From: an uncultured Acidobacteriota bacterium
Lineage (GTDB): Bacteria > Acidobacteriota > Thermoanaerobaculia > Multivoradales > SZUA-115
Direction: 5' to 3'
NCBI GenBank assembly: GCA_937867335.1
Contig: CALMKX010000390.1
Location: forward strand, 1 to 39,014
Length of the DNA stretch: 39,014 nt
Every line of letters begins with the position of its first letter. Position 1 is the first letter of the stretch. This document shows, piece by piece, positions 24,971-39,014 of this stretch. The notes beneath the pieces are model-generated. The model had not been told where the DNA came from. It saw nothing but the letters and a program-made list of their open reading frames with translations, and made no database searches. The translations under genes and the position numbers were made by a program.

Positions 24971-25564
24971 CTAGGGCCTGGCCCCTGGGGGAGGGTGGCT
25001 CTTCAAATCCACCGCCAGCACCTCCTGGAGGGCTCGGCGCAGCTTCTCGAGCTCGTCGCTCTTGGCCTTGAGCTCGGTGACGCAGCTCGTTCGCTCCCGG
25101 GGGCAGGCCTTGGGGCAGGGCTGGGCCTGGGCCGGAGCGGCAGAGGGGCTGAGGTCCGACCCGCTGGGCGGCTCGGTCGCGCCCAGGCGGGCTTCCAGGC
25201 CGGCGGTGGTGGTCTCGAGCTCGGCGATGCGATCGAGCAGGTGGAGCGAGAGCTGGGCGGCCATGGCGTAGTCGCTCGCGGGGGCTCCCCAGATCACCTG
25301 CCGGAAGGCCTCCCGAGCGCGGCTCGCGCTCGCCAGGGGATTGCCCGGTCGCACGTAGCAGAGCCCGAGGCGGAAGTAGACGCGCTCGCTTCTCGAGGTG
25401 GCCGGTCCGTGCCAGAGGGCACGCTCGTAGGCCGGCACCGCGCTCGCGCAGTCTCCGGCGGCGAAGGCGTCGTCCGCCCGCTCGAGCCAGGAGCTCGAAG
25501 CGCAGGCGCCGAGCAGCCCGGCCAGGGCGAAGAGCAGGGCCGCCGCCGAGGCCCGCGAGCTCAC
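24971..25564 (-). CDS. lipoprotein with TPR-like region, QseG-like position
   Basis: A 197-residue lipoprotein: the signal ends in LAGLLGAC, and the next residues (Ala-Ser) allow sorting to the outer membrane. A TPR-like stretch (WLERADDAFAAGDCASAVPA, 'RVYFRLGLCYV') is followed by a helical segment, a Pro/Ser linker and a C-terminal coiled coil ('ELKAKSDELEKLRRALQEVL'). The GTG start overlaps the kinase stop (GTGA), so it is the third gene of the two-component operon. Its place matches QseG/YfhG, the outer-membrane lipoprotein that modulates the QseE(GlrK) kinase in enterobacteria. The sequence itself is not an obvious homologue, so the role is inferred from context. Confidence 0.7.
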   Translation of the reverse strand: MSSRASAAALLFALAGLLGACASSSWLERADDAFAAGDCASAVPAYERALWHGPATSRSERVYFRLGLCYVRPGNPLASASRAREAFRQVIWGAPASDYAMAAQLSLHLLDRIAELETTTAGLEARLGATEPPSGSDLSPSAAPAQAQPCPKACPRERTSCVTELKAKSDELEKLRRALQEVLAVDLKSHPPPGARP

Positions 25565-27149
25565 GCCGCCGCCTCCTGCCCTCGTAGGAGCGGCACCGGT
25601 CCCCGCTGGCCTTCGGCATCGAGGCTCGAAGGCCCGGGCAAGAGCACCGAGAAGATGCTGCCGCCGCCGCGGCGATCGCTCACCCAGATGGCGCCGTCGT
25701 GGGCGCCGACGATCTCCGAGCTGATCGCCAGGCCGAGGCCGATGCCGCTGCCCCGCGAGCGCGATGCGCGGGCCGCCTGGTGGAATTTGCGGAAGATCAG
25801 GTCCTTCTGATTGTCCGGCACGCCGGGCCCCGAATCCGCCACCGAGAGCAAGGCGAAGGACCTGCCGCGACCTTCGTTCACCAACCTGCCGGCGAGGTAG
25901 GCCGGCAGCGGCTTGGGCAGCTTGGCCAGCATGCGCAGGCTCACTTCCACTCGGCCGCCCGCCGGGGAGAATTTGAGGGCGTTGTCGATCAGGTTCTCGA
26001 GCACCTGGATCAGACGGTCCCGGTCGCACGGCACCACGATCTGTGGAGCGGGCGGCAGGTCGAGGCGCATCTGCAGCTTGCGCTCGACCAGCCGGCCTTC
26101 GAACTCGGTGGCGATGGCGCGCACCAGCTCGCTCAGATCGACCTGCTTGAACTCGTAGGTCATCACGCCGGCCTCGAGGCTCGACAGGTCCAGGAGGTTC
26201 GAGATCATCGCCGAGAGCCGGCGCCCGCTCTCGATGTTGAGGGCCAGCATGCGCCGCTGCTTCTCGGTCAGGGGGCCGGCGAGCTCGTCGATCAGCAGCT
26301 GGTTGGTTTCCTGCAACACCACCAGGGGGTTGCGCAGCTCGTGGGAGACGTGGGCCACGAAATCCCGCTTCATGCGATCGAGCTCGGAGAGGTGCTCCAC
26401 CATCGAGTTGAAGGAAGCGGCGAGCCGCGAGAACTCGTCGCCCGTCGAGGCGTCGAGACGGACGTCGAAGTTGCCCTGGGCCACCGCGTCGTTGGCGGTG
26501 ATCAACCGCTTCAAGGGCGCGTTGATCGAACGGATGGTGAAGTTCATCAGGTAGATCGACAGGGCGAGCGCGAGCGCCGTGACTAGGATCACCACCCGCC
26601 GGGCCCGGCTCGAGGTGACCGTTGAGGCGCGGACATCCTCGTTCGATTCCTGGGTGAGCGTGGTCTGCAGCCGGGCGAGCTGGCTCTTGAGCAGCTGGAA
26701 AGACTCCGGAAGCTCGCGGGAGAGCAGCCCGGCCTCGCCGAGCGGGGTCGCCGGCGGCGTTTCGAGGATCGGCGCGAGGACCTGCAGATGCTTGCGCCAG
26801 AGGATGTAGAGGTCCTTGATCTGGTCGTCCTCGGTGGCCGCCAGGCTCAGGCTGCGCAGCTTGTCGAGGTTGGCCCGGAAGCCGTCGTTCAGGGTGCGCA
26901 GCTCCTCGACCAGGTTGGGCAGGTTGTCCGGCAAGAGCGGCCACACCTTGAGCAGGCGCTGGGCGAGGTCGTCCGCCTGGCCCACGAGGGAGAGGCTGTC
27001 GGCCGTCAGCCGGGCGGCGTCGAGCTTGTTGCGCACCAGGTTGCGGGCCGTGCGCTCGGATTCCTTCACCGTGTACAAGCTGTAACCGAGCGCAAAGAGC
27101 AACAAGCCCATGAGCAGCACGGAGCTAGTGGCGATCTTGCTCGCTACCT

Positions 27150-27153
<4 letters not shown>
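25561..27153 (-). CDS. membrane sensor histidine kinase, GlrK/QseE type
   Basis: A 530-residue kinase. TM1 spans about residues 9-28, a periplasmic helical sensor of about 155 residues follows, TM2 is at about 187-208, then HAMP (LKRLITANDAVAQGNFDVRL). The phospho-acceptor is in DFVAHVSHELRNPLVV, and the ATPase domain has the N box LIDNALKFSPAG, G1 VADSGPGVP, F box FHQA and G2 GSGIGLGLAI. The start overlaps the stop of the regulator gene (ATGA), so the pair is coupled. It presumably phosphorylates the NtrC-type regulator encoded upstream. The periplasmic signal is unknown. Confidence 0.93.
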
Positions 27154-28523
<1,370 letters not shown>

Positions 28524-28627: not shown

Positions 28628-30751
28628 TCAGCCACCACCGGTCAAGGAGCGGGGTGCCGCGCCGCTTCCGGCCGCGAGTTCCACGGCCGGCTCGGCCAGA
28701 GCCGGCTCGAGCGGTTGGAGGCCCTGGAAGCGGCCGGAGATGCGACCCTCCTTGGCCGTGAACACGCCTTCCAGGCCGAATCGACCGAGCCGGCCCTCGA
28801 GGGTGATCTGGCCCACGGGCTTGGGGAAATCGAGCACGAAGTGGATGCGTGGCGGCGAGCTCGCTTCGAGCTCGCCGTGGCCCGCGGTGCGGGGCAGCTT
28901 CATCTCCATCTTGTCGGTGGCCAGGCTGAGCTCGCCGTCGCCGGAGAGGGTTCTTTCCTGCTGGGACAGGGTGAGGCGGAGCACGGCCTGGTAGGGGATC
29001 TCCCGCGAGAAGATGTTCTCGAGCTCGAGCACCCAGGGGCCGGCGATCGAGGCTGCCGCCTTGGGCGGCGGATAGAGAGCCTGAGCCAGCACCTGGCGCT
29101 CGGAGCGGGAGAGCGCGTCGATCTCCCGCTGCTCGGGCCGGCCGTAGCCGCCCCCTGCGCGGTTGGCCGCCACCAGGCGGTTGAGCACGGTGACGTAGGT
29201 CGGGGTGGTGATCTTCTGGGGGATCTGATGACCGCGGCTGAAGGCCTCGAGGAAGTGGTTCCAGGCGCCGGCCATCCAGGAGCAGACCAGCTCGGAGCTC
29301 AGCTGCGAGCCGCTGCCACCGGCGAGGCGGGCGAGCTCGCCCTGGCGCCAGGTGACCAGGGCGAGCGGCGGTTCGAGGCCTCGGCCGCGGGCCACCAGAG
29401 TGCAATGGCGCTCGGCGGTCTCGGCTTCCACTCGCACGCCCGGGTTGTCGCGGGCGAGCTCGAAGAGCTGGTCCCAGCGATCGAGAGCGAGGGCCACGAG
29501 AGGCGGCGGTGCGGCATCTTCTCCTTCCGGCCCGGGCAGGTAGAAGGCTGGGCCGAAGGGATGGGAGACCCGCCAGGCCGCGCGCTCGGGGTCGAAGTGG
29601 GCGCTCAGGCGGAACGCCAGCGGCTCTTCGTTCCTGGGCTCCACCGAGAGCAGCTGGGGCAGGACGGCGGTCCAGTTGTCGACCGAGATCTCCACCGGCA
29701 CGGCTACCGCCGCCAGCCGCGCCACCGCTGGCACCCGCACCTCGATGCGTTCCGGCTCGGCGGCTTCGGGCACCACCGCGGTATTGCCGAAGCGCACCGT
29801 GACGCGCTCGCGGTCGTCGGTGAGCCCCTTGCCCTCGAGGGTCACGAGGTCGCCCACCCGAGCCTTCTCGGGTCGGGCCCGGAACAGCTGGGGGCGAACG
29901 GCGTAGGGCAGCACGCGGTGGTAGAGCAGATGGCCGCCGGAGCGAACGTCCATCGGCACGTCGTAGAGCCCGGTCGAGCGGGCCGGCAGCTCCGGCACCC
30001 GCAGGACCAGCTGGCCCGGGCCGAGCTCCACCTGCGGCAGGGTGATCCCGGCGAGCAGCACCGTGAGCTGCTCTCGAGGCCGGATGTCCGGGCTGCGTAG
30101 CACCAGGTTGGCGCCCCCGGTGGCCACGGCCGGCGCCAGCTGTACCGAGCGCCAGAACGGCGAGGCCGGCTGCAGGTAGGAAAGGAGGGTCCACACCAGG
30201 GCCACCGCGCCTGCCGTGGCCACGCTGGCGACCAGCGGCAGCCAGGGCCGGGGGATCAGCGGGCGAGCAGCCGGCGGCGGTTCCGCGGCGGCTTCGGCGG
30301 CAGCCGCGCTCGCCTCCTTGCCGGGTTCTTGAGCGAGGTCGGCGAGGATGGACTCGGCGGTGCGCTCGGCTTTCGGCCGCTCCTTCTTGGCCGGCGCCAG
30401 CAGGCCGAGGTCTTCCAGGAGCTGAGAGGCCGGATCCTCGAACTTGAGCACCAGGGGCGGCCCCTCGGGCTGGCCGAGCACGATCTGCTGGCCGTGGCGC
30501 AGCCGGGCGGGTCCGTCGATCCGCTGGCCGTCGAGGTAGGTGCCTTCGCCGCTGCCGAGATCTTCCAGCACCAGGTGCCCGTCCTCGGCGTAGATGCGAG
30601 CATGGCTCTCGGAAACCGCCGGATGGGCCACCACCAGGTCGGCGCCCGGCGCGCTGCCCAAGACCAGGTCCCGGTCGCCCTGGAGTGGGTGCTCGGCGCG
30701 CAGCTTCCCCTCTTCGAGGACCTTCAGGCTGGGTACGGGGATCTCGGGCAT
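28628..30751 (-). CDS. FHA-TM-IPT/TIG protein, possible SctD analogue
   Basis: A 707-residue protein, last of the type III operon. The order is: N-terminal FHA domain (about 20-105), an Ala/Pro/Glu-rich linker, one membrane segment (about 171-193, WLPLVASVATAGAVALVW), then a large outer part that includes an IPT/TIG Ig-like domain (about 288-372, RPEKARVGDLVTLEGKGLTD). The C-terminal 300 residues are of no recognised family. FHA-TM-periplasmic is the layout of SctD (YscD/PrgH), the inner-membrane ring protein of injectisomes, but SctD is usually about 400 residues with ring-building motifs rather than IPT. The FHA has Ser and His (AVSESH) but GS in place of GR, so pThr binding is doubtful. 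A strong GGAGGT precedes the ATG. Confidence 0.65.
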   Translation of the reverse strand: MPEIPVPSLKVLEEGKLRAEHPLQGDRDLVLGSAPGADLVVAHPAVSESHARIYAEDGHLVLEDLGSGEGTYLDGQRIDGPARLRHGQQIVLGQPEGPPLVLKFEDPASQLLEDLGLLAPAKKERPKAERTAESILADLAQEPGKEASAAAAEAAAEPPPAARPLIPRPWLPLVASVATAGAVALVWTLLSYLQPASPFWRSVQLAPAVATGGANLVLRSPDIRPREQLTVLLAGITLPQVELGPGQLVLRVPELPARSTGLYDVPMDVRSGGHLLYHRVLPYAVRPQLFRARPEKARVGDLVTLEGKGLTDDRERVTVRFGNTAVVPEAAEPERIEVRVPAVARLAAVAVPVEISVDNWTAVLPQLLSVEPRNEEPLAFRLSAHFDPERAAWRVSHPFGPAFYLPGPEGEDAAPPPLVALALDRWDQLFELARDNPGVRVEAETAERHCTLVARGRGLEPPLALVTWRQGELARLAGGSGSQLSSELVCSWMAGAWNHFLEAFSRGHQIPQKITTPTYVTVLNRLVAANRAGGGYGRPEQREIDALSRSERQVLAQALYPPPKAAASIAGPWVLELENIFSREIPYQAVLRLTLSQQERTLSGDGELSLATDKMEMKLPRTAGHGELEASSPPRIHFVLDFPKPVGQITLEGRLGRFGLEGVFTAKEGRISGRFQGLQPLEPALAEPAVELAAGSGAAPRSLTGGG

Positions 30752-30773
30752 GGGAGCACCTCCAAGGGTGTTT

Positions 30774-31445
30774 TCAAGAGATCAGGACCGCCAGCAGGGC
30801 CGCCAACGTGCTCGCCAGGAGCACGCCGCCCACAGCGTAGAGCAGGGTGCGCCGCAGGCGCTGCCGAGAGCCGCGCGGGGGCAGCGCCGGCAGGCCGCGG
30901 GGAAAGCTGCCGGCCGCTTCCAGCCAGCCGAGGGGAGCCCGCTCGGCGAAAGCCCCGGCGGCGGCCGGACTGGTTCCTCCCGGCTCTAGGTCCAGCCGAG
31001 GATAGGTGCCGGCCTCGCTCTCCCAGCCACGCTGCAGCCCGCGGCCGCGGCGGGGGTTCACGCTGAGCGGCTCCTCGTGGGTGTCCGAGAGCACCTCGGC
31101 TTCGAGGATGCGCGAAAGCGTGAGCTTCAAGGGGCCGAGCTCGACCACGTCCCCTTCGCGCACCGGCTGCTCCACCAGCGGCACCAGAAGCGTGCCGCCC
31201 AGGCGGGTGCCGGTGGTCGAGCCGAGATCCGTGATGCGGAACTCGCCGCCCACCACCCGCAGCACCAGGTGGCGGGCCGAGACAAAGGGATGGGCCAGCC
31301 GCAGATCGTTGCCCTGGGTGCGGCCGATGTAGAGCAGGCGGCGCTTGGACTCGAGGTCGATCGAGCGGCCGTTCGGGTAGACCACCCGGATCTGGTAGCA
31401 GAGGGCGGCCTCCGGGCTCGGGTGGGCGAAGCGGTCAGCTCGCAT
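30774..31445 (-). CDS. tail-anchored FHA-domain protein of the type III operon
   Basis: A 223-residue protein with an FHA domain at about residues 20-115 and a single C-terminal membrane segment (LLYAVGGVLLASTLAALLAV) separated by a Pro/Gly-rich linker. All pThr-binding landmarks are near canonical: YIGRTQGNDL, FVSARH, DLGSTTGT (the usual Asn is Thr). It should therefore bring phosphorylated partners to the membrane next to the export apparatus. The gene overlaps the end of sctV by 11 bases and is followed after 22 bases by the FHA-IPT gene. It is not a standard injectisome component. Confidence 0.8.
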   Translation of the reverse strand: MRADRFAHPSPEAALCYQIRVVYPNGRSIDLESKRRLLYIGRTQGNDLRLAHPFVSARHLVLRVVGGEFRITDLGSTTGTRLGGTLLVPLVEQPVREGDVVELGPLKLTLSRILEAEVLSDTHEEPLSVNPRRGRGLQRGWESEAGTYPRLDLEPGGTSPAAAGAFAERAPLGWLEAAGSFPRGLPALPPRGSRQRLRRTLLYAVGGVLLASTLAALLAVLIS

Positions 31446-33594
31446 GGGCCACCTCGGCGCCGCGTGGGGAAGCGGCCGGCAGCATGATGCGGCCGATCGG
31501 CTGCAGCCGCAGATCCGGCGGCAGCTCCTGGAAGGAGAGCACCACCACGTCCTGGTACTGCAGCTCCAGCAGGCGTTTGACGAAGTAGCGCACTTCCATC
31601 TGAGTGACCACGATCAGCTGGTGGCCGGGCCTCAAGCTGCTGATGGTGGCCGCGAAGGCGTCCACCAGGGCGCGCGAGACCTGCGGATCGAGGGTGAGCG
31701 CGCTGCCGGCCGGCGAGGGATGGATGGCGTCTGCCACGGCCTGCTCGATGCGCGGGTCGAGCACGTAGACCGAGACCACCGGCCGGCCCTTGCCGAAGCG
31801 GTGGGCGATGTAGCGCTTGAGGGCGATGCGCACCCGCTCGGTCAGGTAGACCGGGTCGGTCTCGTAGCGCCCCCACTCGGCCAGGGCTTCGAGGATCGCC
31901 CTCATGTTGCGGATCGAGATGTCCTCGCGCAGCAGGCGGCGCAGCACATCGGTCAGCCGCTGGACGGTCAACAGCTCGGGGATCACCGACTTGACCAGGG
32001 CGCCGTAGCCCTGCTCGTCCAGGGTATCGAGCATGTTCTGCACGTCCTGGATGCCCAGCAGCTGGTCGCCGTGCTTGCGCAGCACCTGGGCCAGGTGGAG
32101 CGCTAGGTATTCGTCCGGGGCGATCGCGTTGCCCAACCCCTGGGGCAGCTCCGAGGCCTTCTGGCGGCCGATCCACAGCCCCTGGCCGGGGCCGGAAGGG
32201 TGCGGGGCGGGCTTGCCGTCCACGCCCAGCAGAGCGAGCTGCTCGAGGTGCTCGTGGACGAAGACCTGCTCCGGGTAGGTGAAGCCGGTCGCCACCGGGA
32301 TCTCGTTGATGTAGATCACGTAGGAGTTCGCCTGGGCGAGCGGCGCCGAGCCCCGCACCCGCACCCCGGGCACCGTGACGCCCAGCTCGCCGAAGATCCA
32401 GTCGCGCATCTGCGGCACCAGCTGCTGGATGAAGCGGGTGCCCTGGATCTCCACATCCACCATGTCGGTGACTTCCTTGCTCATCTCCACCAGGATCGGC
32501 ACCGGCATCGGCAGCCGCGCCTGCTCGTCGCTCGCCTTGGCGCCCATCACCTCCGCCCGCACGGCTTCGATGTCCTTCTTCTCGCGGGTGCGGGTGAGCC
32601 CCCACGCGGTGCCGGCGGCGAGGGTGGCGAGCACCAGGAAGGGGATGGCCGGCAGGCCGGGCACGATCGCCAGGGCGAGCAGCAGCACACTCGTGATGGC
32701 GATCGCCTTGGGCTGGGAGAGGATCTGCACCCCGATCTCCTTGCCCAAGGAGGAGTGCTCGTCGGTGCCCGAGGCCACCCGGGTGGTAATGATGCCGGCG
32801 GCGGTCGCCACCACCAGCGAAGGCAGGGCCGAGACCAGGCCGTCGCCCACCGTGAGCAGGGTGTAGACGCGGGCCGCCTCGCCGGCCGGCATGCCCTTCT
32901 TGAGCACGCCGATGGCGAGGCCGGCCAGGATGTTCACCAGGCAGATCAGGATGCCGGCGATGGCGTCGCCCTTGACGAACTTCATCGCCCCGTCCATGTT
33001 GCCGTAGAACTGCGACTCCCGGGCCAGGTTGAGCCGCCGCCGGCGCGCCTCGTCGATGTCGATGATGCCCGAGCGCAGGTCGGCGTCGATCGACATCTGC
33101 TTGCCCGGCAGGGCGTCGAGGGTGAAGCGGGCGGCCACTTCCGAAACCCTTTCCGCGCCCTTGGCGATGACGATGAACTGCACGATCAAGATCACCACGA
33201 AGACCACGAAGCCCACCACGTAGTCGCCGCCGACCACGAATTTGCCGAAGGCCTTGATCACCTCGCCGGCGCGGGCGTAAGTCAAGATCATGCGGGTGGA
33301 GGAGATGTTGAGCCCCAGGCGGAACAGCGTGGTGACCAGCAGAATGCTGGGGAACGATGCCAGGGCCAGGGCGTTCGGCACGTAGAGCGAGATCATCAAG
33401 ATGGTGACCGAAAGCGTGATGTTGGCGGCCAGGAGCAAGTCCAGCAGCCACATCGGCATCGGCACGATGATGATGGCGACGATCGCCATCACCAGGACCG
33501 CGAGCAGGATGTCGGCGTAGCGGGTGAGGACGGCGTTGATGTCCCCCGCGAAGATGCGGTTGCGCAGGCTGCCCAGGTCCGGGATGGCGGTCAT
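31435..33594 (-). CDS. sctV: type III export gate protein SctV/FlhA
   Basis: A 719-residue export gate, the nonameric ring that takes up substrate from the ATPase side. The N-terminal membrane domain (about 20-340) shows the family blocks MISLYVPNALALASFPSILL, LFRLGLNISSTRMIL and the FHIPEP-type region KQMSIDADLRSGIIDIDEA. The cytoplasmic C-terminal domain contains 'VTVPGVRVRGS', 'LLREDISIRNMRAILEALAE' and 'EVRYFVKRLLE'. It is the sole copy here. The start overlaps the sctU stop (ATGA). Sequence alone does not settle whether it is nearer SctV or FlhA; I use the Sct name because no flagellar genes are present. Confidence 0.95.
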   Translation of the reverse strand: MTAIPDLGSLRNRIFAGDINAVLTRYADILLAVLVMAIVAIIIVPMPMWLLDLLLAANITLSVTILMISLYVPNALALASFPSILLVTTLFRLGLNISSTRMILTYARAGEVIKAFGKFVVGGDYVVGFVVFVVILIVQFIVIAKGAERVSEVAARFTLDALPGKQMSIDADLRSGIIDIDEARRRRLNLARESQFYGNMDGAMKFVKGDAIAGILICLVNILAGLAIGVLKKGMPAGEAARVYTLLTVGDGLVSALPSLVVATAAGIITTRVASGTDEHSSLGKEIGVQILSQPKAIAITSVLLLALAIVPGLPAIPFLVLATLAAGTAWGLTRTREKKDIEAVRAEVMGAKASDEQARLPMPVPILVEMSKEVTDMVDVEIQGTRFIQQLVPQMRDWIFGELGVTVPGVRVRGSAPLAQANSYVIYINEIPVATGFTYPEQVFVHEHLEQLALLGVDGKPAPHPSGPGQGLWIGRQKASELPQGLGNAIAPDEYLALHLAQVLRKHGDQLLGIQDVQNMLDTLDEQGYGALVKSVIPELLTVQRLTDVLRRLLREDISIRNMRAILEALAEWGRYETDPVYLTERVRIALKRYIAHRFGKGRPVVSVYVLDPRIEQAVADAIHPSPAGSALTLDPQVSRALVDAFAATISSLRPGHQLIVVTQMEVRYFVKRLLELQYQDVVVLSFQELPPDLRLQPIGRIMLPAASPRGAEVAHAS

Positions 33595-34724
33595 CGGAAG
33601 GTCCTCGCGGAAGGGTCGCCGGCCGAAGCCGAAGCCCCGGTGAGCCAGCGGGAGAGGGGGTCGCGGCGGCGGCGCTCGCGCTCTTTCAATCGGTACACGA
33701 AGGCCAGCACCTCGGCCACGGCGGCGTAGAGCTCGCGCGGCACTTCTTCGGCCACGGAGAGCCTGGCGAGGGCGCGGGCGAGCTCGCGGTTCTCGACGAT
33801 CGGCACCCCCGCGCGACGGGCGAAGGAGCGGATGCGCCGGGCGGCGGAATCCTGCCCTCTGGCGGTGACCCGCGGCGCCGCCATCTTGTCTCGCTGGTAG
33901 GCGAGCGCCACCGCGTAATGGGTGGGGTTCACCAACACCACGTCGGCGTTGCCCACGGCCTTTCTCACGTCGGCGAGCGCCAGCTGCTGGTGGAGGGAGC
34001 GGCGGTGGGATTTCAGGTGCGGATCCCCCTCCATCTCCTTGTACTCCTGCTTCACCTCGTACTTGCTCATCTTGAGCTGGCGCTCGTTGTTCCAGCGCTG
34101 GAACAGGAAATCGAGCACCGCGAGCACCAGGAAGACCACGCCGATCGACACCAAAAAGGTTTTCACCAGAGCGGTGACCACGATCGCGAAGGCCTGCAGG
34201 CTGTCGGTGTAGATCAGCCTCAGGATCAGCGCCAGGCGATCCGAGAACACCCAATAGGCCACGCCGAGCACGATCACCAGCTTGAGCAGGGTCTTGGCGA
34301 ACTCGAACAGCCCTTGCACCGAAAACCATTGCTTGAGGCGGGTGGCGGGGTTGATCTTCTCGAGCCGGGGCTGGAGCGGGTAGGCCGAGAAGTTGAAGCG
34401 GGTTTGGATCACGCCCACGGCGAGGCCGGCACCGGCCAGCACCAGAAGCAGGGTGAGCGGCAGATGGGCGGCGCGCTCGAAGTTGCGCGCCATGGCGTCG
34501 GCCGCCACCTGGGGGCTCAGGCGATCGAAACGGGTGAGCTCGGTGGCCTCGTGGAAGGAGGCGAGAAAGGCCTGCACCATCTTGGTGCCGAGCCCGAAGG
34601 CCGCGAAGACGCCGATCAGGAACAGCACCGCGCCGCTGGTATCCCGCGAGAACGGCACCTGTCCCTTCTTGCGCGCTTCGCGCAGCTTCTTCGGGGTGGG
34701 TTTCTCGGTTTTCTGCTCGCTCAT
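33591..34724 (-). CDS. sctU: type III export switch protein SctU/FlhB
   Basis: A 377-residue autoproteolytic switch protein. The N-terminus SEQKTEKPTPKKLREARKKG is the family hallmark. Four membrane segments follow (to about residue 205), then the cytoplasmic domain with the cleavage motif NPTH at 266-269, intact Asn and Pro. Cleavage between Asn266 and Pro267 switches export specificity in relatives. The downstream LAYQRDKMAAPRVTARGQD is also typical. It is coupled by ATGA on both sides, to sctT and sctV. A Ser/Ala-rich tail of about 15 residues is extra. Confidence 0.95.
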   Translation of the reverse strand: MSEQKTEKPTPKKLREARKKGQVPFSRDTSGAVLFLIGVFAAFGLGTKMVQAFLASFHEATELTRFDRLSPQVAADAMARNFERAAHLPLTLLLVLAGAGLAVGVIQTRFNFSAYPLQPRLEKINPATRLKQWFSVQGLFEFAKTLLKLVIVLGVAYWVFSDRLALILRLIYTDSLQAFAIVVTALVKTFLVSIGVVFLVLAVLDFLFQRWNNERQLKMSKYEVKQEYKEMEGDPHLKSHRRSLHQQLALADVRKAVGNADVVLVNPTHYAVALAYQRDKMAAPRVTARGQDSAARRIRSFARRAGVPIVENRELARALARLSVAEEVPRELYAAVAEVLAFVYRLKERERRRRDPLSRWLTGASASAGDPSARTFR

Positions 34725-35584
34725 TTCGCGGCCGTCCCGGTCTCGATGGCGATGCGCTCGGTGGTGGCCAGGAACCAGCGGTGGTGGCCCTCGAAATACT
34801 CGTTGGCGACGTCGATCAAGCCGTAGACCGAAAGGCCGATCACCAGGGCGGAGAGCGCCGACTTGAGCGGCAGGCTCATGAAGAACACGTCGAGCTGCGG
34901 GGCCATGCGATTGGCCACCCCCAGCACCACGTCGAGGAGGATCACCACCACCAGGGCCGGCGCGATGATGCGCAGCGCGATGCTGAGCATCATCGCGGTC
35001 TGGTCGATGAACGAATAGGCCGCGAGGCCCAGCTCCAGGCCGGGAACGAGGGGCGGCAGCAGGCGGTTGGCGTCGAGGGCGGCCTCGAGAAAGAAGCGAT
35101 GGCCGCCGCCCAGGAAATACAGCACGATGAACAGCTGGTGGTAGAAGTCGCCGAGGATCGAGCTCTGCAGCCGCGTCTGGGGCACGATCAGATTGGCCAC
35201 CGTGGTGCCGCGGGCGGCGTCGATCGCCTGGCCGGCCATCTCGGCGGCGAAGAACGGCAGGCTGGCGGCGAAGCCCAGGGTGACGCCGATCGCCAGCTCC
35301 TTGAGCACCAGCGCCCACCACACCGGAGTCGAGAAGGCGAGAGGCACGGGCGCCGCGGCCGAGAGCGAGGGCAGCAGCACCAGGGCGAACAGGAAGCCGA
35401 AGCCGATGCGCACCACTGCCGGCACCAATCGCCCGCCGAGAAACGGCGCGAGGGCCGCCACCGGCAGCCAGCGGGCGAGGCCCAGGGTGAACAGGGAGAC
35501 CGTGTCGAAGGCGTTGTGGCGCACCCCGAGCTCCGCCGTCAAGGTGGAGAAGAAGGCGTCGTAGAGGGTGGCCGGGGCGCTCAC
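34721..35584 (-). CDS. sctT: type III export membrane protein SctT/FliR
   Basis: A 287-residue protein with about six membrane segments (for example LPVAALAPFLGGRLVPAVVR and FIDQTAMMLSIALRIIAPAL) and the conserved ELAIGVTLGFAASLPFFAAE block. It forms the export gate core with SctR and SctS. The start is the ATG at 35584, five bases after sctS; the stop overlaps sctU. Confidence 0.93.
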   Translation of the reverse strand: MSAPATLYDAFFSTLTAELGVRHNAFDTVSLFTLGLARWLPVAALAPFLGGRLVPAVVRIGFGFLFALVLLPSLSAAAPVPLAFSTPVWWALVLKELAIGVTLGFAASLPFFAAEMAGQAIDAARGTTVANLIVPQTRLQSSILGDFYHQLFIVLYFLGGGHRFFLEAALDANRLLPPLVPGLELGLAAYSFIDQTAMMLSIALRIIAPALVVVILLDVVLGVANRMAPQLDVFFMSLPLKSALSALVIGLSVYGLIDVANEYFEGHHRWFLATTERIAIETGTAAK

Positions 35585-35589
35585 GGCGG

Positions 35590-35862
35590 CTAGCTCACCC
35601 AGGTGCCGAAGTTGTTGAAGATGTTCACCGCGAAGGCCAGCACCTGCAGCGCCATCCAGTAGCCGGCGAAGATCAGCACGGCGAAGACCACCACCAGCCG
35701 GGCGGCGGTCTGCAGCGTCTGCTCCTGGATCTGGGTCAGGGCCTGGAGGATCGCCAGGGTGAGGCCCACGGCGAGCGCCGCCACGATCGGCGGCGCCGAG
35801 ACGAGCACCACCAGCATCATGGCCTGGCGGCTGAGGTAGAGGAACTGCTCGGTGTTGCCCAT
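35590..35862 (-). CDS. sctS: type III export membrane protein SctS/FliQ
   Basis: A 90-residue protein with two membrane helices (LVVLVSAPPIVAALAVGLTL and VFAVLIFAGYWMALQVLAF) joined by the charged loop TQIQEQTLQTAARL, exactly the FliQ/SctS architecture and length. Confidence 0.94.
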   Translation of the reverse strand: MGNTEQFLYLSRQAMMLVVLVSAPPIVAALAVGLTLAILQALTQIQEQTLQTAARLVVVFAVLIFAGYWMALQVLAFAVNIFNNFGTWVS

Positions 35863-35869
35863 GGCGGCC

Positions 35870-36598
35870 TCAGCTGATGTAGGGCTGCATCAGCCCCTGG
35901 GCGAGGTGCCGCCAGCCGTCCACCATCACGAAGAGCAGCAGCTTGAAGGGCAGCGAAACCGTGGTGGGAGAGAGCATGTGCATGCCCATGGCGAGCAGGA
36001 TGTTGGAGACCACCATGTCGATCACCAGGAAGGGCAGGAAGAGCAGGAAGCCGATGGCGAAGGCCTCGCCCAGCTCGCTGACGGCGAACGAAGGCAGCAG
36101 CACCAGGAGGTCGTCCTCCTTCACTTCCGAGGCCTTCTTGCCCTGCACTTCGGCCGAGCGCTGGGCGTTGACGTAGAACACCGCTACGTCGTCGCGGTGG
36201 GCGTGCTTCTTCAGGAACTCGCGCACCGGCTCGCGGCTCGCCGACAAAGCCGAGAGCACCGAGCGGGCGCCGCCGGGAGTGAGCACGCCGTGGTCGCTCT
36301 GCTCGACGATCTGGCCTTCGATGCGGTGGTAGATCTGGCCGCCCAGGGGAGCCATCACGTAGAGCGAGAGCACCATGGCGAGGCCCATCACCACCGGCGC
36401 CGGCGGTACTTGCTGGGTGCCCAGGGCCACCCGCAGGATGGACAGCACCACCGAGAATTTGAGAAACGAGGTCATCATCATCAACAGGAAGGGCAGCAGG
36501 GAAAGCGCTGCCAGAAGCAGGACCGTGGAGATCGGGTTGGCACCGATTTCCGGGCCCGGCACAGGGGTGCCGACGATGCCCGAGAGGCTGGCTTGCAT
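35870..36598 (-). CDS. sctR: type III export membrane protein SctR/FliP
   Basis: A 242-residue pentameric core protein of the export gate. Family signatures: SLLPFLLMMMTSFLKFSVVL with LRVALGTQQVPP near the N-terminus, and DMVVSNILLAMGMHMLSPTT with LPFKLLLFVMVDGW near the C-terminus. The length suits SctR. FliP usually has a cleaved signal peptide; the first 20 residues here are not a convincing one. A GGAAGGG stretch precedes the start. Confidence 0.95.
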   Translation of the reverse strand: MQASLSGIVGTPVPGPEIGANPISTVLLLAALSLLPFLLMMMTSFLKFSVVLSILRVALGTQQVPPAPVVMGLAMVLSLYVMAPLGGQIYHRIEGQIVEQSDHGVLTPGGARSVLSALSASREPVREFLKKHAHRDDVAVFYVNAQRSAEVQGKKASEVKEDDLLVLLPSFAVSELGEAFAIGFLLFLPFLVIDMVVSNILLAMGMHMLSPTTVSLPFKLLLFVMVDGWRHLAQGLMQPYIS

Positions 36599-36611
36599 GG
36601 TTACCCTTCCC

Positions 36612-36938
36612 TCAATGGACCGCGTCCTCGGGACGCGAAAGATCGCGCGGCAACGGCACCCGGCGAGCGGGGGCGGTGGGCTCGGGCTCCCGAGTGAGGC
36701 CCTGGAGGCGGTGGATGCCGCCCGGGCCGTAGCCGACGAGCATCCGCTCGCCGTCGACTTCCACCACCGCCAGACGATGGTGGCGGTCGAGAGCCCGAGT
36801 CTCGAGCACTTGGATGCGGCTGGTCTTGCGCGTCCCGCCGAGCGCGGTGGCCCGGGGCAGCACGAAGCGCAGCAGCACCACCGCGAGAGCCAGCACCACT
36901 ACCAGGGAGACGACGACCCGGGCGAGCTCGGCGGCCAT
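36612..36938 (-). CDS. FliO-like export assembly factor
   Basis: A 108-residue protein with one N-terminal membrane segment (LARVVVSLVVVLALAVVLLR) and a cytoplasmic SH3-like domain (IQVLETRALDRHHRLAVVEV, then GERMLVGYG). This is the FliO architecture. FliO helps FliP assemble in flagella and is normally missing from injectisome operons, so its presence immediately before sctR is notable. The start shares one base with the sctQ stop (TGATG). Confidence 0.75.
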   Translation of the reverse strand: MAAELARVVVSLVVVLALAVVLLRFVLPRATALGGTRKTSRIQVLETRALDRHHRLAVVEVDGERMLVGYGPGGIHRLQGLTREPEPTAPARRVPLPRDLSRPEDAVH

Positions 36939-38506
36939 CAGCCGTCCGCCTCGGTGGTGCCCCACCACTGCTCGACGGCGATGCCCACCCGGCCGTCGAT
37001 CACCAACACCCGGCCATGGCCCATCACCCGGCTGCCGGCGGCGTCGTGCACCAGGATGCGCACCGGCTCCTCGGGGCTGCGCTCGAGGCGGATCGCCGTG
37101 CCCTCCTGCCAGGAGGCGAGCTCGGCGAAGGGCACGCTCAGGCGATCGAGCTCGAAAGAAACCGCCACTTCGAGCTCGCGAGGCAGTCCGGTGGGCAGGG
37201 CGGGGGCGTTCTTGGTTTCCTTGATTTCCGGCACGTTGGGCATCCCTCCTTGAGGCGAGGCGGTCCAATGGGAAGAGGCCAGGCTGAGCTCCAGGCGGCC
37301 GCGGTCCAGGCCCACGGCGACTGGCCGCTCGAGGTGTTGGATCGAAAGCGTGGCCTCGCCGGCGAAGGGCGCGGCGGCGGCCTCCTGGGCGCTGCGGCCC
37401 AGCCAGCGCTCGGGTACCAGCACATCCCCCGGGCCCACCGAGGCGAGCTCGAGGCTGGAGAGCCGGCTCTCGCCGTAGCGCACCTGGGCGTCGAAGCGCA
37501 GCCGCCCGAGCGCGCTGCGCAGGCCGGGCTCCGGGGCCGGCTTGGGCCCGGAAGCGGCGCTCCACAGCACGGTGGCCGGCAGGCGGCGCTCGGCGAAGGC
37601 CGCCTCGAGGGCGGCGAAGAACCACAGCTCGCCGCTTTCCTCGGGCCGCTCCAGGGGCTGGCCGGTCTCGACCGCCAGGCCGATCTCCGCCGCCAGGGCC
37701 GCCGCCACCCGGCCCCACGCGAAGGTGGTGATGGCCCGGTCGACGGGGTTGGCGAGCCCCACCACCACGCCGGGAGGGCTCCAGCCGAGCGAGGCGTAGG
37801 CGAAGGAAAGCCAGCTCTCCGGCACCCGCAGGTAGCCCCGGAAGCCGCCGGCGGTGAAGGGCAGCCAGATCTCCCCTCTTCCGCCCAGAGCCGCGAAGGG
37901 CTCGCGACTGGCGAGGGCCTTGGCGGCCACCACCCTGAGGCGCACCGAGCCCTGCCGGTCGGGCCCGCGCAGGCGGCCCACCTCCACGCGCAGCTCACCG
38001 GCTTCGATCACGTCGCCGGCGGCGATCTTGCGGGGCGAGCGGGCTCGCAGGGCCTGGCTGCCGAGGCGGGTCGAGCCCTCGGCGACGTCCACCAGGTACA
38101 CCTCGCCTTTCTCCAGCTTGAGCTCGCATTGCTCCCGGGCCAGGCCGAGATCCGAGATGCGCACGTGGCAGGAAGGGCCGCTACCGATGCGGATCGGCAT
38201 CTCGCCCAGGGGCAGATCGAGGCGCTGGCGGCCGCGGTGCCCGGCCTTGGTGAGCACCAGCTCGAGGGTGGAGCTTCTGGCCTCGCCCAGGCGCCAAACC
38301 TCGGAAAGCGCCGCCTCGGTCGCCGCCAGCACGGGGGCCGGCAGCGTCGCGAGAGTGGCCTCGGCCAGGCGGTCGAGGCGGGTGAGCTCGAGCTCGGCGG
38401 CGCTCGCGAGCGGCAGGAAGCCGACCCAGGAGGGAGCGTCGAGCGCCTGGGCAGAGGCCAGCAAGGACCAGTTTCGGGCGACAGAGGGTGGCTGGGTGGC
38501 GATCAT
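36938..38506 (-). CDS. sctQ: SctQ/FliN-family C-ring protein with FHA domain
   Basis: A 522-residue protein. Residues 1-95 are helical and unassigned. About 95-180 is an FHA domain (MPIRIGSGPSCHVRISDLGL, then 'GEVYLVDVAEGSTRLGS'). About 195-330 is the SctQ/FliM-like middle part. Two SpoA domains follow, a first one around 340-420 (RYGESRLSSLELASVGPGDV) and a C-terminal one at about 445-515 (VSFELDRLSVPFAELASWQE, 'GHGRVLVIDGRVGIAVEQ'). SctQ builds the cytoplasmic sorting platform (the C-ring equivalent). An FHA inside it is not in the standard proteins; usually SctD supplies the FHA. This FHA lacks the pThr-binding Arg (GS for GR), the Ser and the His (LAREQ), so it is probably structural. The ATG at 38506 has only a weak ribosome site. 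Confidence 0.85.
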   Translation of the reverse strand: MIATQPPSVARNWSLLASAQALDAPSWVGFLPLASAAELELTRLDRLAEATLATLPAPVLAATEAALSEVWRLGEARSSTLELVLTKAGHRGRQRLDLPLGEMPIRIGSGPSCHVRISDLGLAREQCELKLEKGEVYLVDVAEGSTRLGSQALRARSPRKIAAGDVIEAGELRVEVGRLRGPDRQGSVRLRVVAAKALASREPFAALGGRGEIWLPFTAGGFRGYLRVPESWLSFAYASLGWSPPGVVVGLANPVDRAITTFAWGRVAAALAAEIGLAVETGQPLERPEESGELWFFAALEAAFAERRLPATVLWSAASGPKPAPEPGLRSALGRLRFDAQVRYGESRLSSLELASVGPGDVLVPERWLGRSAQEAAAAPFAGEATLSIQHLERPVAVGLDRGRLELSLASSHWTASPQGGMPNVPEIKETKNAPALPTGLPRELEVAVSFELDRLSVPFAELASWQEGTAIRLERSPEEPVRILVHDAAGSRVMGHGRVLVIDGRVGIAVEQWWGTTEADG

Positions 38507-38533: not shown

Positions 38534-38699
38534 TCAGTCCTCGTCGAGACGGTGGGGGTGGTCGAACCAGGCCCGGCCGCGGGATTGCTGGCCCTGCTGG
38601 AATTGGCCGTCGAAGCCCGAGCCCTGGCCTTTCTGGGCCGCGGCGATCTCGGGGCGGGAGGGGTCCAGGCTGCGGTGGGGGCGAAGCCGCGTTGAGCAT
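38534..38699 (-). pseudogene. possible small first gene of the type III operon, frame broken
   Basis: The last 47 codons before the stop at 38534 (SLDPSRPEIAAAQKGQGSGF onward, ending AWFDHPHRLDED) have the strong G/C third-position bias of real genes here. That frame has no sensible start. An ATG at 38699 opens a neighbouring frame (MLNAASPPPQPGPLP) that would join it if one C were removed from the CCCC run near 38650. That would give a protein of about 54 residues, 27 bases before sctQ. This may be a sequencing indel or a real frameshift; function unknown. Confidence 0.35.
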
Positions 38700-38741
38700 G
38701 TCGCCCGCCGAGATTTGCCACCCCCGCCGGGCCTGTGCAAC

Positions 38742-38747
38742 ATTATA
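38742..38747 (-). promoter_or_regulatory. perfect TATAAT -10 box upstream of the type III operon
   Basis: On the minus strand TATAAT (38747-38742), in an otherwise GC-rich stretch, about 40 bases before the ATG at 38699. The -35 position (about 38765-38770) falls on the GATC break, so the native -35 has probably been lost from this sequence. Confidence 0.45.
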
Positions 38748-38774
38748 GCTCGCGTGCCGGGCCTGATCGATCGC

Positions 38775-39014
38775 GAGATCGCTTGCGGCGTGCAGTCGTC
38801 TTCACCGTCGCTAAAGTCAATCCATATACATGTGTCTTCCGACCCCGGACACCACAACGTCGTAGACTCTTCCCGTATTCGCAGAAGTCCATTGAGTCGG
38901 ATATTCCGGTTATCGAATCGCTCTGGATGTCTAACCAACTCCGACAGCGACACGTCGTCGACGCCCAACGGTGTCTCGACACTCGCGCTTCCTAAGGTCG
39001 CCGGTTCTCGAATT
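38775..39014 (-). CDS. fragment of an unrelated gene, cut at both ends
   Basis: A frame open to the window edge reads ...VSLSELVRHPERFDNRNIRL, then LNGLLRIREESTTLWCPG and CIWIDFSDGEDDC. It resembles short proteins or domains with a 'L..NPERFDGK.VRV.GYL' strand pattern, of unknown function. The codons are less GC-biased than in the type III operon. At the cluster of GATC sites (38765-38780) it runs out into sequence that belongs to the operon side. A TTG at 38968 could be a start, but the frame is open further upstream. Confidence 0.45.

Follow-up and report, generated by a model that had tools for sequence, protein, structure and literature searches.

Non-flagellar type III secretion systems (NF-T3SS) were recorded only in Chlamydiae, Proteobacteria and Verrucomicrobia in a 2012 survey (PMC3459982), and no report of one in Acidobacteriota was found in the literature searched, subscription papers aside. 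The closest described systems are those of Myxococcota, which were published as being without the needle subunit SctF (PMC3459982, PMC10433427). FliO, which helps FliP/FliR assembly in Salmonella, is known in non-flagellar systems of Myxococcota and some Pseudomonadota (PMC12403147). The DNA studied here (the window) is the whole of contig C390, 39014 bp, of a metagenome-assembled genome from the Acidobacteriota, class Thermoanaerobaculia (G000; 5.56 Mb, 391 contigs, 97% complete, 2.2% contaminated). It carries a type III export operon, for which the best explanation, at a probability of roughly 0.8, is a NF-T3SS of a Myxococcus-related class with an export gate and candidate substrates, and lacking a dedicated SctC secretin. 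Below, C-numbers are contigs of G000, other G-numbers are genomes of relatives and L-numbers are extracted loci.

The operon runs from 38506 to 28628 on the minus strand as sctQ-fliO-sctR-sctS-sctT-sctU-sctV-FHA-FHA, nine intact genes that overlap or are separated by gaps of a few bp. A first-pass annotation had named these genes at these positions, and all of them were present and assigned by Pfam:

36938..38506, minus strand: sctQ, cytoplasmic ring, 522 aa (PF01052 (FliMN_C) 4e-13, PF00498 7e-7; best NCBIfam model TIGR02551, below its cut-off)
36612..36938, minus strand: fliO, 108 aa, N-terminal transmembrane (TM) segment 8-26 and cytoplasmic beta domain (PF04347 3e-11, above cut-off; TIGR03500 4e-12, below cut-off)
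35870..36598, minus strand: sctR, export gate subunit (PF00813 1.5e-66; TIGR01102 SctR above cut-off, FliP below)
35590..35862, minus strand: sctS, export gate subunit (PF01313 3.5e-22)
34721..35584, minus strand: sctT, export gate subunit (PF01311 3.6e-50; SctT model outscores FliR)
33591..34724, minus strand: sctU, substrate-switch protein (PF01312 3e-111; FlhB and SctU models tie)
31435..33594, minus strand: sctV, export gate (PF00771 2.9e-219; TIGR01399 SctV above cut-off, FlhA below)
30774..31445, minus strand: FHA protein 1, 223 aa, tail-anchored, TM 204-222 (PF00498 5e-14, PF16697 6e-10)
28628..30751, minus strand: FHA-TM-TIG protein, 707 aa (PF00498 2.5e-16, PF16697 7e-12, TIG 2e-5)

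The order sctQ-fliO-R-S-T-U-V is that of flagellar fliN-O-P-Q-R-flhB-flhA, as had been noticed at first pass, and comparison with the flagellar cluster of Pontibacillus showed the same arrangement. The proteins themselves scored as non-flagellar. With NCBIfam models, SctV gave 750 bits for TIGR01399 (SctV, cut-off 692) and 646 bits for TIGR01398 (FlhA, cut-off 772), and SctR gave 238 bits for the SctR model (cut-off 209), with the FliP model below its own cut-off. SctT, SctQ and SctJ favored the Sct models as well (SctJ of G000, TIGR02544, 150 bits vs 53 for FliF), and SctU was a tie with FlhB. In a concatenated R-S-T-U-V tree of 23 systems, all flagella were split from all non-flagellar systems (100/100), and the window formed one clade with G017, G087, G168 and G162 (100/100); the reference systems for comparison were symbiont, commensal and environmental records. 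A 60-row SctV tree gave the flagellar/non-flagellar split with a Shimodaira-Hasegawa-like approximate likelihood ratio test (SH-aLRT) support of 99 and placed the window within an eight-genome Acidobacteriota clade (98). The SctV of the window is 36-42% identical to Acidobacteriota FlhA. Because SctV and SctR pass the Sct cut-offs and not those of FlhA and FliP, and because the tree split is 100/100, the system is, as judged from its proteins, a real non-flagellar type III system. The phylogeny of SctR/S/T/U/V recommended at first pass puts the proteins outside the flagellar clade, though flagellar fragments exist in the bin.

The likeness to the Myxococcus systems that had been suspected was also borne out. 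The Myxococcota long locus reads I-J-?-L-N-O-?-Q-FliO-R-S-T-U-small genes-V, with an FHA gene next to it on the opposite strand, and the gene order of the window is the same. The SctV of the window is 48-51% identical to that of the long type, which is among the nearest SctV outside Acidobacteriota; for classical, plasmid-borne injectisomes the identity is at most about 42%. The Myxococcota short locus consists of an SctF-like gene, I, J, Q, FliO and R-S-T-U-V. We describe the system as apparently related to the Myxococcus/T3SS* class rather than as a plain member, because the published class lacks the needle subunit and an SctF-like protein is present here. Early branching, which had been offered as an alternative to the lack of a secretin, fits the trees: both the R-S-T-U-V and the SctV tree favor, without proving it, a place beside the Myxococcota systems, outside the classical injectisomes and close to the base of the NF-T3SS. 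In the best tree the flagellar root attached beside the close Acidobacteriota clade with a support of 48/24. In approximately unbiased (AU) tests, a tree holding all Acidobacteriota systems and the Myxococcota long type together was as good as the free tree (p = 0.55), and one holding the Acidobacteriota with both Myxococcota types was not rejected (p = 0.20). Nor was a tree joining the close clade to the injectisomes (p = 0.11); early branching is accordingly compatible with these tests, not demonstrated by them.

Other features were seen in the Myxococcota loci. A 738-aa protein encoded immediately before sctL in a long locus (L152 263-2479) matched the FliG C-terminal model at E 1e-4 (23.0 bits, cut-off 23.3) and is possibly a FliG-like SctK. 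Directly after sctU, the C-terminal domain of SctU is encoded once more, as a short additional copy, in two long loci (L152 11294-11575, L165 12123-12401). A separate, long-branched SctV group (SH-aLRT 100) was formed by L017, L019 and L020, which come from metagenome-assembled genomes of Myxococcota/Deltaproteobacteria and in which a TPR gene precedes sctV; genes for many small proteins surround sctV in L019 and L020.

The window FliO could be aligned with the FliO of E. coli, Pontibacillus and Myxococcota. The gene was found in 8/8 Acidobacteriota loci with SctQ/SctR context, those of G087 and G162 being missed by the gene finder and recovered by translating the gaps. Since FliO has already been published for such systems, it is expected for the class and is not an anomaly.

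The search of the source genome that had been advised recovered SctJ on C135 and, on other contigs, stray flagellar pieces. C135 encodes a glycine-rich protein, then a TPR protein, an SctF-like protein of 87 aa, another TPR protein, SctI and SctJ, and it ends within the first part of SctK. In G017 the genes are syntenic and the whole set lies on a single contig in the order glycine-rich, TPR, 83-aa, SctF-like, TPR, SctI, SctJ, SctK, SctL, SctN, SctO, probable SctP, SctQ, FliO, R-S-T-U-V, FHA, FHA-TIG. The SctP (FliK-like) was recognized by eye in the stretch separating SctO from SctQ and is a probable assignment. This succession of parts, F-(TPR)-I-J-K-L-N-O-P-Q-R-S-T-U, appears similar to that of the Ysc system. 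SctL and SctN were present in G017, G168 and G182, and SctN was intact in these three and in G220.

A one-sequence profile of the needle-like protein of G017, searched against 896 predicted proteins, matched at E <1e-5 solely proteins encoded upstream of sctI in type III loci. These were from G000, G182, both Myxococcota long loci and both short loci, and the reverse searches recovered them; the seven proteins align along a C-terminal helix. The Myxococcota SctF-like proteins lie near sctI in long and short loci (L178 14487-15056, L179 14338-14883, L155 4049-4537, L163 60-479), and the Pfam needle model matched them weakly (E ~0.05). Profile-profile comparison with two needle proteins encoded elsewhere, of which one passed the Pfam SctF cut-off and the other fell slightly short of it, gave a probability of 84% over the last 40 columns. 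The controls gave 18% for the needle-like protein vs SctI and 13% for SctI vs the needles. By these profiles the needle-like protein near sctI is probably an SctF homologue, and the published absence of a needle in the Myxococcus class may be a limit of sensitivity.

The three FHA proteins noted at first pass were correctly counted, and SctQ itself was found to be one of them. Its FHA domain (about 98-174) lies ahead of a SpoA/FliN-type C-terminus. The fusion recurs in G087, G162, G182 and G220 (FHA E 4e-18 to 7e-16) and, as predicted from the domain matches, is a new architecture. The phosphothreonine signature is lost from the window SctQ, and a phosphothreonine-type GR...SxxH signature is kept in the tail-anchored FHA protein 1. 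An AlphaFold model of SctQ built from two sequences had a predicted local distance difference test score (pLDDT) of 41, and the FHA part alone was usable. The FHA-TM-TIG protein has a cytoplasmic FHA domain, one TM segment (173-191) and about 500 periplasmic residues with TIG/Ig-like domains. The cytoplasmic part of SctD is an FHA-like domain (Pfam PF16697), and FHA-TM-TIG, being SctD-like in layout, is a candidate inner-ring protein in the SctD role. Its model had a pLDDT of 66, and its PDB fold matches were to FHA and IPT/Ig domains.

Candidate substrates were found among DUF1521 proteins, which are T3SS-secreted or T3SS-linked elsewhere (DUF1521/MIIA; PMC6506597). A DUF1521 gene followed by a TPR gene lies beside the T3SS locus in G017, and the same pair is present on C376 of G000 (PF07481 2.6e-10). 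The motif GDPH, the self-cleavage site shown for a T3SS-linked protein of Vibrio coralliilyticus and conserved in NopE1/E2 (PMC6506597), was kept in 6/6 Acidobacteriota DUF1521 proteins (G000, G017, G431, G193, G172, G220). Above cut-off, DUF1521 was found in 5/17 system-positive and 2/379 system-negative genomes of the phylum sample (Fisher p = 1.6e-6, kinship ignored), an association that supports the export of such proteins by the system. Directly behind the DUF1521 pair of G000 there is a second protein-plus-TPR pair (L192 7031-8449 and 6406-6981), in which a 472-aa protein without a Pfam match and the TPR protein are candidates for a further substrate and its chaperone.

The secretins of G000, G017 and G087 were scored with the SctC model TIGR02516. 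G017 and G087 have two secretins each, one in a pilM-N-O-P operon and one in a gspE/F/G-like cluster. G000 has the same two types and an orphan GspD-like secretin on C80. None in these genomes passed the cut-off of 238 bits (best 136), and two control SctC proteins gave 330 and 477 bits. A secretin on C219 was considered as SctC and scored as PilQ. G009, which is of the same genus as G017 and has no T3SS, also has two secretins. SctC is a criterion of the classical injectisome, and no such secretin was found in or near the loci examined. On these model scores there is no dedicated SctC in the three genomes, in which only PilQ/GspD-like secretins were found, and the secretin-less part of the first-pass suggestion stood to that extent.

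The genomes might instead encode a complete injectisome with an unlinked, divergent or borrowed secretin, in which a PilQ, a GspD-like or an orphan protein acts as SctC. Abby & Rocha report three or more cases in which a secretin was taken over from another system (PMC3459982), and the orphan secretin of G000, the needle-like protein and SctI would all suit such a machine. We nevertheless regard it as unlikely: in G017 and G087 both secretins are accounted for by the pilMNOP and gspE/F/G-type clusters, none of the secretins reaches the cut-off that the control SctC proteins pass, and none is extra, because the T3SS-free G009 has the same number.

Degeneration of a former type III system would fit the absence of SctN, SctL and SctO from the G000 assembly and the family relatives that do not have the system, and the Myxococcota loci too were formerly called relics (PMC3459982). 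This is very improbable given nine intact and tightly packed genes, SctV that is 59-67% identical with gene order kept across families and classes, the intact SctN of four relatives, and the function of the M. xanthus T3SS* in predation (PMC12075869). The system is probably working, to judge from its genes.

It had also been stated that there is no other flagellar gene, which held for the window and not for the bin. The G000 bin holds flgB, flgC and the start of fliE on C37 (L226 5491-6427), all at the contig end, and two flgK pieces at contig ends on C246 (L225 13060-14556) and C374 (L227 10601-11644). One flgK piece runs in frame into a rhomboid protein and the other is frameshifted; by tetranucleotide composition, C246 and C374 were not marked as foreign. 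No further SctV/FlhA and no further SctJ/FliF were found in a genome-wide search of G000, and flhA, fliF and fliI were not found in the bin. The pieces may be contamination, misassembly or a relic flagellum, and the class of the operon is unaffected either way. That the operon serves as export gate for a flagellum only partly assembled in the bin, as these pieces and the flagellar gene order with FliO might suggest, is barely credible against non-flagellar SctV and SctR scores, the 100/100 split, an SctJ rather than a FliF, flgK pieces that are broken or fused to unrelated sequence, flagellar FlhA in 0/149 genomes of the class, and five relatives (G017, G087, G168, G182, G220) that carry an operon of this kind and in which no Flg_bb_rod or other rod/hook protein was found. 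The model scores, the tree, the intactness of the genes and their conservation were the grounds for rejecting a flagellar origin or a relic.

Several results weigh against the interpretation as a Myxococcus-related NF-T3SS. SctN was not found in the G000 assembly in a PF00006 search, and neither SctL nor SctO was found there. C135 breaks inside SctK, and the window tip on the sctQ side (38534-39013), considered as SctO/SctP, showed no similarity to them; the C135 and C390 halves may accordingly belong to different loci, or a misassembly may affect the tip. The needle and SctD assignments draw on protein layout, gene position and weak profile matches. The needle-like protein had no match in a PDB sequence search, and no SctD periplasmic match was among the best 50 PDB fold matches of FHA-TM-TIG. 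The DUF1521 counts do not correct for relatedness, and both system-negative carriers are congeners of a positive genome. The PF00006 matches considered as SctN in G000 were Rho and two genes on C194 with lengths fitting V-type ATPase A and B. These two adjacent genes (L008, L009) were the only rotary ATPase matches in G000, where no F-type alpha/beta was found.

The SctV type of the window was present in 3/149 genomes of the class and in about 17/396 evenly drawn Acidobacteriota genomes, which belong to nine or more families, with a score gap to flagellar FlhA of 570 to 472 bits. G162 and G431 carry both the system and a flagellum. In the working that we propose, FliO would assist assembly of the SctR/T/S core, and SctV and SctU would complete the export gate. 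The inner ring would consist of SctJ and one of the FHA membrane proteins, probably FHA-TM-TIG in place of SctD, and the FHA domain of SctQ may tie the cytoplasmic ring to it. Loading would draw its energy from the SctN/L/O ATPase complex, as known from relatives. SctI and the needle-like SctF-type protein would be exported first; later substrates, with TPR proteins as chaperones, would include self-cleaving proteins of the DUF1521 (NopE) type. As no SctC is encoded, the outer membrane would be crossed in the last step by another route, such as PilQ, a GspD-like secretin or a pilus partner of the kind proposed in M. xanthus; otherwise the structure may end in the periplasm.

What is new here is the extension of the class to Acidobacteriota, the SctQ-FHA fusion, the absence of SctC from three genomes, the needle-like protein and the DUF1521 association. 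We tentatively propose, as a view that may well prove wrong, that Acidobacteriota and Myxococcota share one old and widespread class of FliO-bearing systems without a secretin, which makes a needle-like filament, exports substrates without a dedicated outer-membrane ring and represents a surviving intermediate stage from flagellum to injectisome; FliO would then be ancestral and lost by classical injectisomes, and "needleless" would be wrong for the Myxococcus T3SS*. The argument that the injectisome came from the flagellum leans largely on the Myxococcus lineage, to which the Acidobacteriota class adds an independent second lineage. A possible evolutionary halfway form may be more widespread than was thought, and two questions become testable, whether there is a needle and how type III export proceeds without a secretin of its own.

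Two genes next to the operon are of possible relevance to it, the first, co-directional, as its regulator and the second as the partner of that regulator:

27150..28523, minus strand: sigma-54 response regulator (PF00158 3e-66, PF00072 4e-28)
25561..27153, minus strand: HAMP histidine kinase (HisKA, HATPase_c, HAMP)

Near the low-numbered end of the contig (900-5126), a phage head-tail connector (PF12236 2e-34, phrog_332 7e-57) and a phrog_3742 protein are likely the edge of a prophage.

Compared with the flagellar T3SS, the window has the same gene order and FliO, and differs in the 100/100 split, in the lack of any FliF, FlhA or FliI in the searches described, and in having SctJ and SctI in place of FliF and the rod. 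With classical injectisomes (Hrp, Rhc, Desulfo and Verrucomicrobia-type) it shares the SctF-I-J-K-L-N-O-P-Q-R-S-T-U-V parts, as seen in G017, and the matches to the SctV and SctR models. It differs from them in FliO, in the FHA domain on SctQ, in the lack of SctC and in the low SctV identity. The Myxococcota short locus has the same SctF-like, SctI, SctJ, SctQ, FliO and R-S-T-U-V genes, but its SctQ is short and without FHA, and its place in the RSTUV tree is with the classical injectisomes (95/98), apart from the window system. The nearest counterpart is the Myxococcota long locus, or M. xanthus T3SS* (PMC3459982; PMC12075869; PMC10433427), with which the Acidobacteriota system shares the order I-J-..-L-N-O-Q-FliO-R-S-T-U-..-V-FHA, TPR genes and the lack of an SctC secretin. 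In the long locus SctQ is FliM plus SpoA and a double-FHA protein is encoded, whereas in Acidobacteriota SctQ carries FHA and FHA-TM-TIG stands in place of the double-FHA protein; DUF1521, absent from the two Myxococcota genomes searched, is present in Acidobacteriota hosts of the system.

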